From IMG/VR virus record IMGVR_UViG_3300030399_000069, positions 1-27,324 of that record: a stretch of 27,324 nucleotides of DNA, one strand, 5' to 3'. The stretch's first letter is position 1. Each line of letters starts with the position of its first letter. The notes under the pieces are model-generated. The model worked only from the letters and a program-made list of their open reading frames with translations. It had not been told where the DNA came from and made no database searches. A program made the translations under genes and the position numbers. The stretch comes from a virus. Below, one piece after another: positions 6,981 to 26,461 of this stretch.

Positions 6981-8435
6981 TCACACATTATTTATGATAT
7001 CATGTCTTTTAGGATAAGGCAATATATTCCATATTTTTCTATGTTGTTCTCCTTTTTTATTCAATAATAAAACATATTTACCTTTTAGTTCTTTTTTTAT
7101 TTTATCACATTTACTCATCAAATTCTTAGCATGATTCATCAATTGTTTTCTAATATCTTCAGGAATTGCTTTAATATCTTGAAATCCATTGATTTTTGAC
7201 CATTCCGGTAACCATTTTATATTAAGTTGTTTTGCCCATTTTTTCATAGAAGAAGTTCTAGTAAAATATCTATCTCCTACCAAACGACCATTAGAAAGTT
7301 TATATTGAAAAGTGGAACCAAAAGTATTACCTAAATAATCAAAATTGCAAGCTTGATATATTGTCCCAATTTCACCTGCTTCTGGATCACTATATGCTGT
7401 AAAAATTCGTTTATCTGTATTATTTATCATCCATCTACAAGAAAACATAACTAGTCTTGATCCTAAATTTTTAGGAGTCCAACTTGCACAAGCGCCTCTT
7501 TGTATTAAAGCTTCTAGATCCATATCAAATTGATAAGCATTAGGTTCTGCGACTAATACAACACCACCTAAAATACCCTTATAACGCGCTGTAAAGGCGT
7601 ATCTGACGCCAAATCCACAAGTACCCAACCATTCATATCTTTCAATGAATTTTCTATGTTCCGTATTAAATGGTTCATAATTAAGTTGAAATTCAGAAGC
7701 TTTCATTCCAATAGGACAACCTTTTTTAATATCATCTTGCAATAATTGATCTCTTATTTGTTTTTGCCAAGAAGTACTCGTATCAAATTTATCATTTTTC
7801 TCATTATTTAGTGCATAAATCATAGGTCTTAAATTTGTATAATGATTTAATCTTTCACAATCAGATTCCATTTTGGCTAAAGAAATAGGTAAAATATGAT
7901 CTATCGACCAATAAGTTCCATAATTGTCCCAATTCATTCGATCATTAAATTGATTTTCTAAATGTTTTTTAAATTCTTCTTTTGTACAACCAATAAAATC
8001 AAGAAAATGACCGTCTTTAACCCAATTATTATCTTTTAAAATTCGATTTGTCTTTCTTCGAAGATTTTCAATTAATCTATATAAAGGATCATTTTTTCTC
8101 TTTTCTAATCTTAATTCATTTCGTCTTTGTTTATATTTGACTTTATAAATTTTATTATATTCTTTAATATCACCAATATGAGTTTTTTTGTAATTCTTAT
8201 TATATTCTGAATAATGTTCTTTATTTTGATATCTTTTAGTTAATACTTGTTTTCTATTAGTTTTATAATAGTTTTTAGCATTTTCTTTTATTTTGTCTCT
8301 TTTTTTATTATAATGTTCTTTATCAATTTTACTTTTACATTCTTTACATTGAGGATAATGACCATCAGTAGATCTCGAAAGAATTCCAAACTCATCATAA
8401 TTTTTAGTATTATTACAAATTGTACAAGTTTTCAT
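6981..8435 (-). CDS. HNH endonuclease fused to a Mom-like GNAT domain
   Basis: This 484-residue protein has two parts. Residues 1-35 hold Cys pairs (CTICN...CKECK) of a zinc finger common in phage HNH proteins. A basic linker follows, then an HNH domain at about 140-215 with SIDHILPISL (D179, H180) and NLRPMIYALNNEKND. Residues about 250-370 contain FIERYEWLG, LGGVVLVAEP and AYSDPEAGEIGTIYQACNF, a pattern like the GNAT-fold Mom family, whose Mu member makes methylcarbamoyl-adenine to evade restriction. I infer a homing nuclease joined to, or inserted in frame into, a DNA-modification gene. The Mom assignment rests on motifs, not alignment. The gene sits just after the capsid terminator and has a weak ribosome binding site. 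Confidence 0.72.
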   Translation of the reverse strand: MKTCTICNNTKNYDEFGILSRSTDGHYPQCKECKSKIDKEHYNKKRDKIKENAKNYYKTNRKQVLTKRYQNKEHYSEYNKNYKKTHIGDIKEYNKIYKVKYKQRRNELRLEKRKNDPLYRLIENLRRKTNRILKDNNWVKDGHFLDFIGCTKEEFKKHLENQFNDRMNWDNYGTYWSIDHILPISLAKMESDCERLNHYTNLRPMIYALNNEKNDKFDTSTSWQKQIRDQLLQDDIKKGCPIGMKASEFQLNYEPFNTEHRKFIERYEWLGTCGFGVRYAFTARYKGILGGVVLVAEPNAYQFDMDLEALIQRGACASWTPKNLGSRLVMFSCRWMINNTDKRIFTAYSDPEAGEIGTIYQACNFDYLGNTFGSTFQYKLSNGRLVGDRYFTRTSSMKKWAKQLNIKWLPEWSKINGFQDIKAIPEDIRKQLMNHAKNLMSKCDKIKKELKGKYVLLLNKKGEQHRKIWNILPYPKRHDIINNV

Positions 8436-19501: not shown

Positions 19502-19837
19502 TTATCTCTTTGCATTTATTGAAGCTGATATAAAACCAGTTCCACTAGTAAATGTATACACTAATTGTACATAAGAATAAGCAGGTAACGAATCAGGTAT
19601 TAAATATATTCCAGCTGCACTTATTGCAACGGTAAATTGTGACCCAGGCACATTTCCAAAATTTATACCATCATTGGATCCTTGAACTTGAAGACTACCA
19701 ACAGGAGATCCAGTAATAACTGCAGATATGCAATAACTTCTAATTTCATCAATATTCTGACTAGCAGAAATTGAACTTGCTGTTAATGAGTGAGCAGTAT
19801 AAATTGGTTCGTTAAATGAATGTATTGGTTCTGACAT
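19502..19837 (-). CDS. Virion-type beta-rich protein
   Basis: This 111-residue protein (MSEPIHSFNEPIYTAHSLTA) contains SLQVQGSNDGINFGNVPGSQ and ends FISASINAKR. The 'G-S-x-x-VQ-S-N-D-G-x-x-F' motif is common in small virion proteins. Its ribosome binding site (AAGGAT, 19842-19847) sits within the displaced portal tail described below. Thus the gene originally followed the portal directly, and an interrupting endonuclease gene now separates them. Confidence 0.7.
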   Translation of the reverse strand: MSEPIHSFNEPIYTAHSLTASSISASQNIDEIRSYCISAVITGSPVGSLQVQGSNDGINFGNVPGSQFTVAISAAGIYLIPDSLPAYSYVQLVYTFTSGTGFISASINAKR

Positions 19838-19845
19838 AAATATCC

Positions 19846-19890
19846 TTATTTTTTAACATTTCCCATTGCAGCTTGTTGCAATGCGGGGTT
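19846..19890 (-). pseudogene. Displaced 3' end of the portal gene
   Basis: Read on the minus strand, this stretch encodes NPALQQAAMGNVKK and TAA. The intact portal ends NPALQQATMGNVSKK with TGA. The peptides match at 13 of 14 aligned positions with one gap. The DNA differs at 11 of 45 aligned bases, 9 of these in synonymous changes (for example AAT/AAC, CCA/CCC, CTT/TTG). It lies immediately after the GIY-YIG stop and out of frame with it. It is best read as the original portal end, stranded when the endonuclease gene entered with its own recoded end. Confidence 0.85.
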
Positions 19891-20575
19891 ATTTAATTAT
19901 ATCTAGATCTAAATATTCAAATTTAAATCCTTTAAATGATTTTCTTTTTCCAGTACAAACTCTTGATATATGAGCTTGTTTACATCCTAAATATTTTGCT
20001 GCTTCTGTTGCACTATCAAATATAATATTTCTATCTAACCAAAGAACATATTTTGACAAAAAATGTCTATTATTTTTATGATATTTAATTTTAGAAATAG
20101 ATAAATTTTTTCTATGAGATTGGGATTTAGGTTTGTTCTTTAATGCTACACTAATTTTTGGATTTGCTTTATATTGTCTTTTCAATCCTGGTTTTCCTTT
20201 ATTATGTGCAGGTCTACCTTTTAATATTAAACTTATTTTTGGATTTGGAATTCCTTTTTTACTATTACTAATTTTTTGTTTAGTTTCTTCTGATAATCTT
20301 TTATTATTTCCACCATGCTTTAAATTGTATCCATTAGGACTTATACAATTAAATTCTTTTATATATTTTTCTTCTAATATATTAAGTTCTTTTAATGTTT
20401 TAGCAATATCTATTAATTCTATTGAAAAATTATCTTTACCATATTTTCTTATAGCTTTTGATATTGTAGTTCTATTCCCATAATAATGATCAGACCATCT
20501 TTTCTTCAAAGATTTAGTAGTCTGACCGATATAAATTTTAGAATTAATAGTATTACTTATTTTATATATAATCAT
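19889..20575 (-). CDS. GIY-YIG homing endonuclease inserted at portal 3' end
   Basis: This 228-residue protein has the GIY-YIG module at its N-terminus (IYKISNTINSKIYIGQTTKS with R26-type basic residues, KFGKDNFSIEL-like and NGYNLKHGGNN). It continues with Lys-rich NUMOD3-like repeats (KQKISNSKKG, HNKGKPGLKRQ) and a C-terminal NUMOD1/IENR1-like helix-turn-helix (ATEAAKYLGCKQAHISRV). This is the standard layout of a phage homing enzyme: nuclease, linker, DNA-binding tail. The ATG overlaps the portal stop as ATGA. The displaced portal end directly follows its stop codon, showing insertion into the portal gene. Confidence 0.92.
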   Translation of the reverse strand: MIIYKISNTINSKIYIGQTTKSLKKRWSDHYYGNRTTISKAIRKYGKDNFSIELIDIAKTLKELNILEEKYIKEFNCISPNGYNLKHGGNNKRLSEETKQKISNSKKGIPNPKISLILKGRPAHNKGKPGLKRQYKANPKISVALKNKPKSQSHRKNLSISKIKYHKNNRHFLSKYVLWLDRNIIFDSATEAAKYLGCKQAHISRVCTGKRKSFKGFKFEYLDLDIIK

Positions 20576-22668
20576 TTTTTAGATACATTCCCCATTGTCG
20601 CCTGTTGAAGGGCTGGATTTGATAGTAAACTTTGTGGTACTTTAGCCGGTTGTCCGGGATTAATATTTCTAACTCCAGGTCCTTGTTGTGATTGTCCTGC
20701 AACTGTTTGTCCTTGAGCAGGAGACATCATGGCGGGCATTGGACTACCAGTTAATGATTGTTGGGGTGGTTGTCCGCCAGGAGGACCATTTTGAGGTTGA
20801 CCACCTGGAGGATTATTATTGTTTTGGAGAGGAGGAAGAGCTTGTTCTCCGCGCATTTGTAAAAGAGCAGGATCTGTATTTCTCAAGGCATCCATATGTC
20901 CTTGAATATGATCCATAACAATTTTAACAAAATTTGGATCAGTACGAAGATCTGGATCAGCTAATACCATACTATGTTCATCGATATGAACACTATGTTT
21001 ATCCATTGGACTTACCAGGGGATTATTACCTTCTAGAAGTTCTTCATTTTCTTTTTTAATAAGCATAAGATCATCTATTTCTCCTTCATACATTGCATCA
21101 AGTCTTCCGGTATTAATAACTTGAAAATATTGTTGAGGATTTTTGATGATTTTCATTTGCATCATTTGTTCAGCCATTTGAACTCGACCAGCAATTGTTT
21201 TTGATAATGGATTACCCATATCAACTACAACTCTATTGATTGATGAAATCTTTTCTCCAGTAAATTCTTTTAATAATGGACGATTATTTTTACCAACTAG
21301 AGTCATAACTTTAGGAGTATTGGCAAAATCTTTTAATATTTGAATTACAGCAGTTCCTACTTCTTCGACTAATCTAACATAATTGGCTTGAAGTCCTGAC
21401 ATGAATTGTAATGCTTGAGCCTGAACAAGAGCAAGAGCTGTTCCAGACTTGAGAGATGCTTCTGGATTACCACGCGCAACACTATTAACTCCTGAAATTG
21501 TTTCTGCTTGTTGAATGAGCATATCTAAGAATTTAAATACTTCTGCAGGAGTTTGAGTTAGATTAAGAGCCTCTGGTTTTGCAGTAGATTCAATAACATT
21601 TAAAGCACCCTCAAGATTACTAATTGCAATATCAGCACCTCTTGGCATCCAAATGTTTTGTACTCCGAAGGCATTTTGGTTAGTCATAATTGTTCCAAAT
21701 AAAGAATTAATACCTTCTTGGATTGGAAAAATATCAAACATTGGAGTGTAACCATATGGAGTTCCTAAAATTTCACTAGGAACTATTCTAAAAACTGGGA
21801 TAGTCCGATAAGGCATTTTAGCATCTAAGAGAATAACATCTGAATCGAGAAATAACATATATCGACCATCTGGCATTGATTCAGTTTGACGATGAAAAAA
21901 TTCATATACAGCAACATCATCTGTATCATCATTAGACCAAACAGCTAATCTGTAAACTGTACTTTGATTTTTTGGAGGAAGTGCTCGTATTTTATCAGCC
22001 ATTTCAGGATATTTTGCAATAAGATCAAATCTATTAACCCAATTTCTAACAGTTAACCAATCATTATTCCATGTATCTTTTGTTCCATCAATAACTACGT
22101 CAAATACAGAAGGAGTTGAAAATTCTAATTCACCTTCTCTTACTGCCTCATCTGTTTCTGGATCAACATCATATATTTCTCCAGCTGTTGCATTCCAGGC
22201 AAGTTTTACATATCCTTGACCTAGTACAATTGCATGTTCTGTTGCTCTTGTTAAACAGCTTTCAAGATTCTTTTCTCGCATGTAATAATCGAGAATTTGA
22301 TTACCAAGATAAGTCTGAGCATATGATTTATAGTCTGTATTAATTGCTCTACAATCCATGGTAGGTCTTGAAGAGGTTATCATTACATAAATATGTTGTG
22401 CAAGATTTCTAAAATGGTTTATAGGAATTTGAACTAATTCACCTTGTTCTCCAGTAAAATTTACTCTATGTCCATATCCAATGTAGTCGTTTAGATAAGC
22501 GCCATTGTATGCACGCCACATATTTTGAAGTTTATCTAAATAGCTATTAGATCGAAGAATATTAAAAAACGATTCAGACTTTCCTAATATAATACTTGCG
22601 GCATCAGCTGCGGGTTTAGCCGCGAAGTATACGTCCGATGGATCATTAAAAGGACTTGAATTAGACAT
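20572..22668 (-). CDS. Portal protein, P22-type
   Basis: This 698-residue protein forms the dodecameric channel at the head vertex through which DNA is packaged. The N-terminal region contains NMWRAYNGAYLNDYIGYGHR and ITSSRPTMDCRAINTDYKSY, the latter typical of P22-like portals. Then comes LGQGYVKLAWNATAGEI. The length is close to the P22 portal's. The C-terminus is disordered and Pro/Gln/Gly-rich (about 610-675). It lies 2 bases after TerL with a GAGGAAAT ribosome binding site. The last 15 codons appear to be a recoded version brought by the following GIY-YIG gene; the original is stranded at 19846-19890. Confidence 0.9.
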   Translation of the reverse strand: MSNSSPFNDPSDVYFAAKPAADAASIILGKSESFFNILRSNSYLDKLQNMWRAYNGAYLNDYIGYGHRVNFTGEQGELVQIPINHFRNLAQHIYVMITSSRPTMDCRAINTDYKSYAQTYLGNQILDYYMREKNLESCLTRATEHAIVLGQGYVKLAWNATAGEIYDVDPETDEAVREGELEFSTPSVFDVVIDGTKDTWNNDWLTVRNWVNRFDLIAKYPEMADKIRALPPKNQSTVYRLAVWSNDDTDDVAVYEFFHRQTESMPDGRYMLFLDSDVILLDAKMPYRTIPVFRIVPSEILGTPYGYTPMFDIFPIQEGINSLFGTIMTNQNAFGVQNIWMPRGADIAISNLEGALNVIESTAKPEALNLTQTPAEVFKFLDMLIQQAETISGVNSVARGNPEASLKSGTALALVQAQALQFMSGLQANYVRLVEEVGTAVIQILKDFANTPKVMTLVGKNNRPLLKEFTGEKISSINRVVVDMGNPLSKTIAGRVQMAEQMMQMKIIKNPQQYFQVINTGRLDAMYEGEIDDLMLIKKENEELLEGNNPLVSPMDKHSVHIDEHSMVLADPDLRTDPNFVKIVMDHIQGHMDALRNTDPALLQMRGEQALPPLQNNNNPPGGQPQNGPPGGQPPQQSLTGSPMPAMMSPAQGQTVAGQSQQGPGVRNINPGQPAKVPQSLLSNPALQQATMGNVSKK

Positions 22669-22670
22669 AA

Positions 22671-24155
22671 TTAAAATTTCCTCTTGGTTCTAATACCAAA
22701 TATTTGTTTGTATTTTTCTAGTTGACTATTCCCATTTTCTGCAAATTTTGCAGGGTCTTTAACAAATAAACTAGACATATTCATTTGATAATGAGAAGGA
22801 TATGGATTTTTTTTATATTCTATAACTCTTACTAAATATTTTAAAGCTTCTACTGCATCATAATGTCCATCATCTGTACTGCGAGCAAAACCTTTTCTTT
22901 GTTTATCCCATCGAACATTTTTTAAATGTCTTATCAAGGTTACACATCTTGGATGAATAATAATTTTTTTATTTCCAATCATTATACGAAGATTATTAAT
23001 CATAGCATCTGCATCGTCTTTTCTTGCTATTTGAAAATCTACTCCTTCTTCTTTGGAGAATAATTTTCTGCTATGCATGTATATTTCTTGGGTCAATATA
23101 TAACTAATATCACTTACTCTTATGTGTGGTGCTCGATATTCCAAAGATATTGGATTAGTCCAAAGTTCTTTTTCTTTTCTATTAATTTCTTTTGCAAGAT
23201 GTTCAATAGTCATGTCTTTGTCTTGAAAATTAATAACTGTTTCATCTTCTATAATAACTTTATCAGCTCTAAAATCATAATAGCCATAAAGAACTACAGT
23301 AAGATCTTTTCCACCAGTATCCATGCCTTCATATGCATCAAAAAATGGAGGTTTTGGCCATTCTTTTACAATTTCTTTTTCTAAGGCACTATCAAATTCA
23401 GGTATTACAGAAGTTTTAGAATCTTTAATTATTTCACAATATAATTCCCTACGAGCTTCATCCGTATTAATTCCACCCAATTCTGCTATAAGTTCTTCTT
23501 TTTGTTCTGGAGTAATGCGTGGATTATCATCTATTGTTTTCATTATTAGTGAACCACGTTGTTCAGCTTCTTGGATATAATCTAAAAATTCATGATCTGA
23601 TTCTTTTGGAGGAGTAGAAGCTAAAATTCCTTTACCTTTAGTGATAAGAGTTGTCGGCAAAAGAATACTTTTTATCATATTTTTTAAATCGTCACAACTA
23701 CCAGCTTCATCGATCATCCAAATATCGCTGTCACCACCACGAAGTTTTTCAGCATGACCGCTATCACTACCAGCTAATTGAATTTCAGAACCATTATTGA
23801 AATAATATATATAATCTTTTTGTCTGAATTCTGGTTTTATATCACTTGGACAATCTTCTATTAGTTGTCGTAAAATTGGTCTAACGTTATTATTAACTTG
23901 TAACTTTGTTGGTGAAACAAGTTTAACTACTGCATTTGGTTTTCTTATACATTGTTCCAAAGCTAGAACACATAACGTATAAGTCTTTCCTTGACGACGA
24001 GATAAAAGCCAAGTCATTATTTTATGCTTAGAATTATAATAAAGATCATATAATTCTTTTTGAGTCTTGTCTAATTTAAAAGAAAGCATTCCATTACGCC
24101 ACAATTGTTCGCGTGCTGCTCTTTTAATTTCTTCTTTTTCAGTTAGAATTGTCAT
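22671..24155 (-). CDS. terL: Terminase large subunit
   Basis: The start at 24155 (MTILTEKEEIKRAAREQLW) has AAGGG five bases upstream and is preferred to an in-frame TTG at 24170. The 494-residue product has the packaging ATPase: Walker A SRRQGKT (about 52-58), Walker B DIWMIDEAG (D149, E150) and a coupling motif ILASTPP. The nuclease part has the acidic residues of the RNase H-like fold: YEGMDTGGKDL (D279) and DDGHYDAVEALKYL (D433). This motor pumps and cuts concatemeric DNA at the portal. It overlaps the preceding small-terminase-like gene by 17 bases, as usual in such pairs. Confidence 0.95.
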   Translation of the reverse strand: MTILTEKEEIKRAAREQLWRNGMLSFKLDKTQKELYDLYYNSKHKIMTWLLSRRQGKTYTLCVLALEQCIRKPNAVVKLVSPTKLQVNNNVRPILRQLIEDCPSDIKPEFRQKDYIYYFNNGSEIQLAGSDSGHAEKLRGGDSDIWMIDEAGSCDDLKNMIKSILLPTTLITKGKGILASTPPKESDHEFLDYIQEAEQRGSLIMKTIDDNPRITPEQKEELIAELGGINTDEARRELYCEIIKDSKTSVIPEFDSALEKEIVKEWPKPPFFDAYEGMDTGGKDLTVVLYGYYDFRADKVIIEDETVINFQDKDMTIEHLAKEINRKEKELWTNPISLEYRAPHIRVSDISYILTQEIYMHSRKLFSKEEGVDFQIARKDDADAMINNLRIMIGNKKIIIHPRCVTLIRHLKNVRWDKQRKGFARSTDDGHYDAVEALKYLVRVIEYKKNPYPSHYQMNMSSLFVKDPAKFAENGNSQLEKYKQIFGIRTKRKF

Positions 24156-24564
24156 TTGTCCCTTCAACAAGGGCTAAAAGTTCTTCATTACTCATATTTT
24201 GAGTTTTTAATTCGATAACTTTTGGAGAATTTCTCGAAGCAGTCAATACTTTTGAAAATATTTCTACTCGTCTTGCTTCTTCTAATGTTAATTCTCTTCC
24301 ACTACTAATATCTCTGAGCTTTTCGAGTTGCATTACACATATTGCTTCCTCAGAACTTGTTAAAAATTTTTGTCCCAATGATTTATCATCTTTTAAAATT
24401 GGAACTGATGATTCTAAAAGTTGTTTGAGGTGATCACGTTCTTCTTCAAGTTTTTTTAATTTCTTTGACAGATTTAATATGGTACTATTTTGTGCTTCAG
24501 CATATGCTTGCAATTGACTCATTTCTTTATATTGCAATATGGTTTTACTAAAGCCATCAGACAT
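24139..24564 (-). CDS. Probable terminase small subunit
   Basis: This 141-residue protein begins MSDGFSKTILQYKEMSQLQA and has a coiled coil at about 25-50 (LSKKLKKLEEERDHLKQLLE). A helical segment with ISSGRELTLEEARRVEIFSK follows, then an acidic tail. The assignment rests mainly on its position right before and overlapping TerL and on its size; the 'R-E-LTLEEARR-EI' segment resembles proteins found there in other phages. A DNA-binding helix-turn-helix is not obvious. It overlaps the end of the HNH gene by 8 bases. It could be another packaging accessory protein. Confidence 0.55.
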   Translation of the reverse strand: MSDGFSKTILQYKEMSQLQAYAEAQNSTILNLSKKLKKLEEERDHLKQLLESSVPILKDDKSLGQKFLTSSEEAICVMQLEKLRDISSGRELTLEEARRVEIFSKVLTASRNSPKVIELKTQNMSNEELLALVEGTNDNSN

Positions 24565-25192
24565 TATATTTATTACCTTTGCTACAATTTTGAGATTCAG
24601 TTAATATTTGTAAGTTTTCTGGTACATGAAGTCCTGATATATTTTTACCTTGTAATGGAATAATATGATCTACTTCAAATAAAATTCCTAAACTATCAGT
24701 CATAAGTTTTGCATAAGTATAGTATTCTTCTATTTTTAACCAATCATCAAATGTTAACCATTTTGGTGTTCTTTGTAATTTTAATGCCCTACGTTTAGCT
24801 GCTGATGCATTTTTTTTAGCTTTATCTGCAGTTTTATAGCATTTTTTTGAATATTCGTTAAATTGTTTACGATTATTTTTACTATATTTTGCTTGTTTTT
24901 CTTTTAAAGAAGATTCATAATTTTTATGCCAGTAAATTCTATTTCTTTTATTAATTTCTTCTTTGTTTGTCATATAATATTCAATTTGATAGTTTTTATA
25001 TTCTTTAGTATCTTTAATTTTATTGTATCGGTCTTTAAAATATTTATCAGAACGTTTTTTATTTTCAATTCTATATTTAGAATCACAGTCTTTACATTTA
25101 TACTGCAATAGATCTTTAGTTGTTTTTGATTTTGCAAAACAAGACAAAGACTTTATTTCTAAACATTTAGCGCATAATTTATTATCTAGCAT
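24557..25192 (-). CDS. HNH homing endonuclease
   Basis: This 211-residue protein has an N-terminal zinc finger (CAKCLEIKSLSCF then CKDC, residues 7-37) and a long, very basic Tyr/Asn/Lys-rich linker. The HNH domain at the C-terminus contains LFEVDHIIPLQGKNISGLHV, PENLQILTES and NCSKGNK. The D-H pair, the central Asn and the final N-x-x-K are all present, so it should be active. It overlaps the upstream membrane-protein gene by 11 bases and the small-terminase-like gene by 8, so it is tightly spliced into the packaging operon. Confidence 0.9.
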   Translation of the reverse strand: MLDNKLCAKCLEIKSLSCFAKSKTTKDLLQYKCKDCDSKYRIENKKRSDKYFKDRYNKIKDTKEYKNYQIEYYMTNKEEINKRNRIYWHKNYESSLKEKQAKYSKNNRKQFNEYSKKCYKTADKAKKNASAAKRRALKLQRTPKWLTFDDWLKIEEYYTYAKLMTDSLGILFEVDHIIPLQGKNISGLHVPENLQILTESQNCSKGNKYNV

Positions 25193-25650: not shown

Positions 25651-25793
25651 TAAAAAAGACTTCCTCAACGTGTCCTAAGTGTGCGATTTATATGGAATTA
25701 GTCAAAGGAAATACTTGGTTTAAATGTTCCATTTGCGGATATATGATTAAAGTTGAAAAGATTATAATAAAGAAGTATAATAAGATAAAATGA
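25647..25793 (+). CDS. Small zinc-ribbon protein
   Basis: This 48-residue frame reads MLKKTSSTCPKCAIYMELVK, then WFKCSICGYMIKV and a basic tail (KKYNKIK). Two CxxC pairs (Cys9/12 and Cys27/30) spaced like a zinc ribbon are clear. There is no ribosome binding site before the ATG, and the start lies within the proposed promoter, so the message may be leaderless; the next in-frame ATG would lose the first Cys pair. The stop overlaps the GIY-YIG ATG as ATGA. Zinc ribbons bind nucleic acid or proteins, and a regulatory role is only a guess. Confidence 0.6.
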   Translation: MLKKTSSTCPKCAIYMELVKGNTWFKCSICGYMIKVEKIIIKKYNKIK

Positions 25794-26461
25794 CTATTTA
25801 TAAAATCACATGTATTATAACTAATAAACACTATATAGGTCAAACTGTTCAAAAAACAGATAAACGTATACGAGATCATTTTAAACCTTATAATTTAAAA
25901 AAGAAATCCAAAGTTCCATTTCTATTAAAGCAAGCAATATTGAAATATGGTAAAGAAAATTTTAAATGGACTATATTAGATATAGCAAATAATATAGAAG
26001 AATTGAATGAAAAAGAAAGATATTGGATTAAAACTCTAAATACTGTAAGTCCAAATGGTTATAATTTACAATTAGGTGGTAATAGTGGTGGAAAATTTTC
26101 AGAAGAACTAATTTTAAAACATAAAGAAATATATAATATTAATCCAGAATTAAGAAACTTAATAAGTCAATATAGCAAAAATAATTGGTCTAAAGAAGAA
26201 TATAGAAAAAAAATAAGTAAATCAAGAAAAGAAAATTGGAATGATTCTTCTTATAGAATTAAACAACATGAAAGTAGATTAAAAAGTTGGGAATCAAGAA
26301 AAACTGCATATTTGGCAATAAACCCAGAATCAAATATGTCTTGTTTTTATAAAAATAATAATGAATTAAAAGATAATAATTATAAAAGAGATTCTATATA
26401 TAGAGCTATAAAAAATAATGCATTATATAAAGGATTTTATTGGAGAATTTATGGAAAATAA
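25790..26461 (+). CDS. GIY-YIG homing endonuclease
   Basis: This 223-residue protein starts MTIYKITCIITNKHYIGQTV, the GIY-YIG motif with following Lys/Arg residues. LKYGKENFKWTILDI, an ELNEKERYWIKTLNT catalytic-Glu region and NGYNLQLGGNSGG follow. The middle is Lys/Ser-rich (NUMOD3-like), and the C-terminus has SIYRAIKNNALYKGFYWRIY, similar to the tail of the portal-associated enzyme. It overlaps the zinc-ribbon gene by 4 bases and the M15 peptidase gene by 11. Its first 100 residues resemble those of the minus-strand GIY-YIG enzyme, so the two are related. Confidence 0.9.
   Translation: MTIYKITCIITNKHYIGQTVQKTDKRIRDHFKPYNLKKKSKVPFLLKQAILKYGKENFKWTILDIANNIEELNEKERYWIKTLNTVSPNGYNLQLGGNSGGKFSEELILKHKEIYNINPELRNLISQYSKNNWSKEEYRKKISKSRKENWNDSSYRIKQHESRLKSWESRKTAYLAINPESNMSCFYKNNNELKDNNYKRDSIYRAIKNNALYKGFYWRIYGK

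Follow-up and report, generated by a model that had tools for sequence, protein, structure and literature searches.

A GIY-YIG homing gene joined to a probably foreign portal gene end in a phage contig, with the native end stranded downstream

The portal locus and its allele without the endonuclease

The window analysed here, the whole of a stretch of 27,324 nucleotides (IMG/VR record IMGVR_UViG_3300030399_000069), is a phage contig in which portal, terminase and head genes are present, and whose minus strand carries in succession the terminase, the portal gene, a GIY-YIG gene and small structural genes (Table 1). The portal is of the P22 type and its intact ORF terminates in NPALQQATMGNVSKK-TGA, a stop codon that the start of the GIY-YIG ORF overlaps as ATGA. 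The product of the latter contains a GIY-YIG domain (PF01541, 9.2e-10), NUMOD3 and a C-terminal I-HmuI/NUMOD-like DNA-binding segment, the NUMOD-type modules being matched by PF07460 (2e-5) and PF22083 (3.5e-9), and it matches the phage homing endonucleases of phrog_314 (9.7e-40); it thereby combines the catalytic domain and the NUMOD-type DNA-binding modules of free-standing phage GIY-YIG homing endonucleases.

Past the endonuclease stop, at about 19890-19846, lies a second portal terminus, NPALQQAAMGNVKK-TAA, which adjoins a ribosome-binding site, AAGGATATTT, and the ATG of the ORF that follows. Between the end now fused to the portal (the carried end) and this stranded end, 11 of the 45 bases that align are different and a single Ser codon is extra; in terms of codons, the differences comprise 8 synonymous changes, one change of Ala to Thr, and the stop, TGA versus TAA. 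The second copy is not a product of chance, since it stands in register, has its stop at the expected place, reaches a BLOSUM62 score of 66 and is the real portal end of the relative described below. The two ends, the ATGA overlap joining the endonuclease to the portal, the second copy and the number of differing bases had all been described in the original prediction, and all of them hold.

Table 1. Coordinates of the features in the window
Feature	Position	Strand	Basis
Portal protein gene, 698 aa	20572..22668	-	ORF; PF16510 P22_portal 1.2e-12; phrog_156 portal 5e-30
Carried portal 3' end (67 nt, TGA included), with which the element begins	20572..20638	-	Comparison with L003
GIY-YIG homing endonuclease gene, 228 aa	19889..20575	-	ORF; domain and phrog matches; junction comparison with L003
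Whole inserted element, 741 bp (carried end and endonuclease)	19898..20638	-	Comparison with L003
Stranded native portal 3' end, LNNPALQQAAMGNVKK-TAA, outside any portal ORF	19846..19897	-	Matches the L003 portal end base for base
Gene originally after the portal, 111 aa	19502..19837	-	ORF; directly after the portal in L003 and L004
HNH gene, the phage's second polymorphic homing gene; separate from the portal element	24557..25192	-	Absent in L035; junctions compared

A search of viral contigs with the portal as query returned 39 contigs. One near-isogenic contig, L003, has no endonuclease and is identical to the window in 6686 of 6686 bases up to the junction; it is the only near-identical empty contig for this site, and both alleles come from metagenome assemblies. 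The last base common to the two lies at window position 20639 (...CCGGCTAAAGT), and native DNA resumes at 19897. Beyond the junction L003 continues with TAGTGCCCAATT-ATTAAATAACCCC... into an uninterrupted portal that ends in VSAQLLNNPALQQAAMGNVKK-TAA, with the next gene directly after it, and from ATTAAATAACC (window 19897) to the end of the contig it equals the stranded copy plus the next gene in 111 of 111 bases. The stranded copy is therefore the ancestral end, as had been anticipated for a relative without the GIY-YIG gene. The inserted element stands where L003 has the 12 bp TAGTGCCCAATT (L003 6687-6698), and its insertion was imperfectly precise, given that these 12 native bases are missing; the final 9 bases of the endonuclease gene (ATTAAATAA) are themselves native portal DNA. 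The portal gene is consequently a hybrid of a native body and a carried 3' end. As originally predicted, the carried end keeps the portal protein intact in one uninterrupted ORF, and the locus contains neither an intron nor an intein: no intron RNA family was found at either locus examined, and over 19700-20800 at the portal locus there was no Rfam match even at E <= 1; the continuity of the portal ORF speaks against a group I intron, and portal and endonuclease are separate ORFs, each with its own stop, which speaks against an intein.

The other relatives have a single portal end and no duplication. In L005 (7087-7659) an unrelated HNH homing gene, again without duplicated ends, occupies the same gap between the portal and the next gene, indicating that this gap is a repeated target.

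An assembly chimera of two related phages would offer a trivial account of the locus, and the material does consist of metagenome contigs of which two with different alleles, the window and L003, have precisely the same terminal base (window 27324, the first base of L003), a coincidence that may reflect the end of a genome or a break in the assembly. We nevertheless hold a chimera to be very improbable, since at the left join the alleles have only about 8 bases (GCTAAAGT) in common, much less than the word lengths that assemblers usually employ, the join is in frame at a homologous codon, and the same architecture is found in contigs from other studies.

The HNH gene listed in Table 1 lies beside a small gene upstream of the terminase and is present or absent between near-identical phages. 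The empty junction in L035 reads GGAATAGGTAATGTCCGATAATATTTCC; with the insert, the upstream gene ends in INAR instead of IGNVR and the downstream gene starts with MSDGFS instead of MSDNIS, which is to say that replacement codons are provided for the ends of both neighbours and no stranded copy is present. Between 21889 and 23727 the window and L035 differ in patches (about 23370-23727 and 21889-22147), a pattern that suggests recent recombination tracts. Elsewhere in the window, a single 484-aa ORF (6981-8435) fuses an HNH-type N-terminal part to a Mom-like DNA-modification protein (PF25680, 8e-10), and a second GIY-YIG gene (25790-26461), on the opposite strand, has an end that overlaps a peptidase-like gene at its start (ATGGAAAATAAA); a displaced start was looked for upstream and not found.

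Origin of the carried end and proposed mode of entry

The two portal ends flank the endonuclease gene, and this arrangement alone might be accounted for if the portal end had been duplicated locally and an endonuclease gene had then inserted, independently, between the copies. The portal-fused copy, however, differs from the native end at 25 of 66 aligned bases, whereas the adjoining 6686 bases show 0 differences from the empty allele, a disparity that excludes a drifted local duplication and leaves this alternative with practically no probability; the translation initiation factor loci described below argue against it as well.

The closest sampled relative of the carried end is that of L012 (50 of 66 nt), whose portal is 67% identical in protein and which is too distant to be named as the donor. 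An exact search with the carried peptide gave no match in the viral contigs covered, a set from which near copies of the window may have been excluded, and a second portal element was not found among the GIY-YIG relatives. The original prediction regarded the carried end as recoded, as a version that the element's own enzyme cannot cut. Purpose-made recoding is not supported: at residues identical in the carried and native ends, synonymous codon identity is 5 of 15, which ranks 36 of 152 among natural portal-end pairs and is what ordinary homologues display. This rank points to a foreign homologous end and not to special recoding, and the carried end is best read as the terminus of a diverged homologue, foreign to this phage lineage.

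We consider it very probable that the locus holds a free-standing homing element whose mobile unit consists of the foreign portal 3' end and the GIY-YIG endonuclease gene. The ancestral portal 3' end would be the enzyme's target, with the cut at CTAAAGT-TAGTGCCCAATT-ATTAAATAACC, the junction sequence, and repair would copy the element in, with the portal body on one side and the displaced native tail with the next gene on the other serving as homology arms; the portal insertion would thus have moved by homing. The carried end would complete the portal frame, and restoring the portal would be its main job, so that an essential gene might be invaded without the help of an intron or an intein. 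The endonuclease would in turn be translated through ATGA coupling to the portal, and the native tail would be left behind as a remnant. From then on, the portal body (left) and the stranded tail with the next gene (right) may provide the homology for the next homing event, in an intron-like manner that dispenses with splicing.

The position of the predicted cut site can be narrowed down by what the window has lost. The only ancestral 20-mers missing from it are those that start at L003 6668-6698 (k = 20), and because the remaining ancestral bases are kept in the stranded copy, the site predicted for cleavage has to extend across the 12-bp junction; if the enzyme spares its own genome, the site would span about 6687-6698 of L003. 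Insertion would part the halves of this site, over which the carried end has a different sequence, for which reasons the occupied allele is expected to be resistant. The immunity that had been ascribed to the altered NPALQQ... stretch cannot arise there, as the ancestral version of that stretch persists in the genome and only the junction around the 12 lost bp is missing.

Displaced gene ends at other GIY-YIG loci

Stranded ends were sought at 109 unique GIY-YIG loci by comparing the translated DNA before the gene with the DNA after it, mispaired flanks of other homing loci serving as the null. The latter scored 57 or less, except for one pair at 185 (probably neighbouring contigs). About 4 clear and 2 probable cases emerged among the 109 loci. 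The clear cases are the portal locus of the window (3' type, score 66), L053 (3' type, 118), L103 (5' type, 104) and L208/L214 (5' type, 79), the last of which concerns translation initiation factor IF-3 (Pfam IF3_N and IF3_C); the probable ones, L101 and L079, are decayed and stand outside the firm count. In L053 a TTATGATATAAT-like motif, the usual follower of that gene in many relatives, comes after the stranded copy, and over 40 relatives have a single end. L116 (score 124) was rejected, for by eye it resembles a homing gene set between two small paralogues, with no displaced end. A tree of 110 enzymes unites those of the 5' type (L103, L079, L208 and L218) in a clade of exactly four, of which L218 is no independent draw, having been fetched through IF-3; the 3'-type enzymes (window, L053 and L101) are scattered.

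The stranded-end architecture is that of a minority of the loci. No displaced ends occur at the window's other four homing genes, no stranded ends at eleven cultured-phage GIY-YIG loci, several of which lie inside split terminase or nrdD genes, and of the four weak relatives that turned up in a scan of bacterial genomes, none has a clear stranded end. A related split is seen at L291 (2050-3300), where a phage gene is divided by an HNH gene; its second half has an ATG of its own and about 19 overlapping codons that resemble the upstream end (NGQWSLGKS / NGQWSLVKS).

As far as sequence comparison goes, IF-3 is the strongest test of mobility, with the same cassette shown in two diverged genomes. 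L214 and L215 have in common a 1106-bp element composed of the GIY-YIG gene and a carried IF-3 5' end, with 3 differences (99.7%), which enters at the same base in both (after ...CTTGTT or ...CCTGTT). Around the element the two phages are 60% identical in the upstream gene, 78% in the rest of IF-3 and 61% in the downstream DNA; each recipient's own IF-3 end is stranded, and native DNA resumes immediately on both sides. Although the stranded 5' ends native to these phages are 63% identical, their carried copies agree at 99.5-100%. It follows that the carried end is part of the mobile unit and that the stranded end is the recipient's, and the contrast tells once more against duplication in place. 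L216, which is without a stranded end, has about the final 500 bp of the element in common at 100%, the carried end among them, but not the remainder; L218 has a diverged version of the element together with a stranded end of its own, and in L219-L224 the IF-3 end is single and uninterrupted.

These loci also bear on a reading modelled on the Seg enzymes of phage T4, in which a distant cut is followed by co-conversion, the gene end is mere co-converted donor DNA and the stranded tail goes back to one accident of illegitimate repair. According to the T4 homing review (PMC2988022), Seg enzymes do cut neighbours away from their insertion point and co-convert the flanks, and the lack of a stranded copy at most screened GIY-YIG loci and at the other four homing genes of the window is in keeping with such behaviour. 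Yet the IF-3 elements enter two diverged phages at one and the same base and are flanked directly by native DNA, which is what would be expected if cut site and insertion site coincide, and a single accident does not sit well with the recurrence of stranded ends in L053, L103, L208/L214, L215 and L218; we therefore deem this reading unlikely. Nor is the portal locus, originally described as a fossil, a one-off, the same plan and also its mirror image at gene starts being found in other phages.

Relation to known homing systems and wider meaning

The closest parallel comes from the mORFs of fungal mitochondria, known from Allomyces atp6 and from Glomus atp6, atp9, cox2 and nad3, in which an endonuclease ORF moves together with a foreign C-terminal end that joins the resident gene in frame, and the displaced native end, lying downstream, matches a close relative without the element (PMC3630166). 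At the portal locus, likewise, the endonuclease ORF adjoins a carried end fused in frame to the portal, and the displaced portal end matches the element-free L003; the Glomus atp9 case is, in addition, also GIY-YIG (PMC3630166). On the other hand, mORFs are mitochondrial and mostly LAGLIDADG, whereas the portal element resides in a phage contig and in a structural gene, has a short carried end and predicted ATGA coupling, and has related phage loci that also present the mirror image at gene 5' ends. The portal element would work like a mORF but, being in phage and not in mitochondrial DNA, is not classed as a member.

As regards phage systems, the portal element resembles the T4-like Seg/Mob genes in that a GIY-YIG gene lies between phage genes with no intron, and for that group preferential inheritance of a resistant allele in the neighbouring sequence is the accepted rationale; it differs from them in that the T4 genes occupy intergenic gaps away from the cut site. 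With mobA in T4 gene 60 and mobE in Aeh1 nrdA it has in common a homing gene within an essential phage coding sequence, but in those two cases insertion divides the host gene into separate coding regions, whereas the portal is repaired by the carried end (PMC2988022 for both T4-type comparisons). A term search within that review met no mention of duplicated gene ends, term searches in PMC10448857, a study of phage nucleases at recombination boundaries, returned nothing of the kind, and no description of a terminus-replacing homing element in phages was found in the open-access literature. The principle is thus known from the fungal mitochondrial "mobile ORFs", and its occurrence in phages is without a precedent that we found.

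It is likely, in our judgement, that these loci represent a recurrent class of phage homing elements whose cargo is a substitute terminus for the target gene, which come in two mirror forms (a 3' end before, or a 5' start after, the endonuclease gene), insert at their own cut site in an intron-like manner without splicing, and include one GIY-YIG lineage dedicated to the 5' form. Such elements would open a third route, besides introns and inteins, by which a selfish nuclease can reside inside an essential phage gene, namely by bringing a working replacement. They would generate chimeric essential genes and explain stray gene ends beside phage endonucleases, and the parallel with fungal mitochondria, together with the portal, IF-3 and other phage cases, may render both convergent evolution and the frequency of this strategy measurable.
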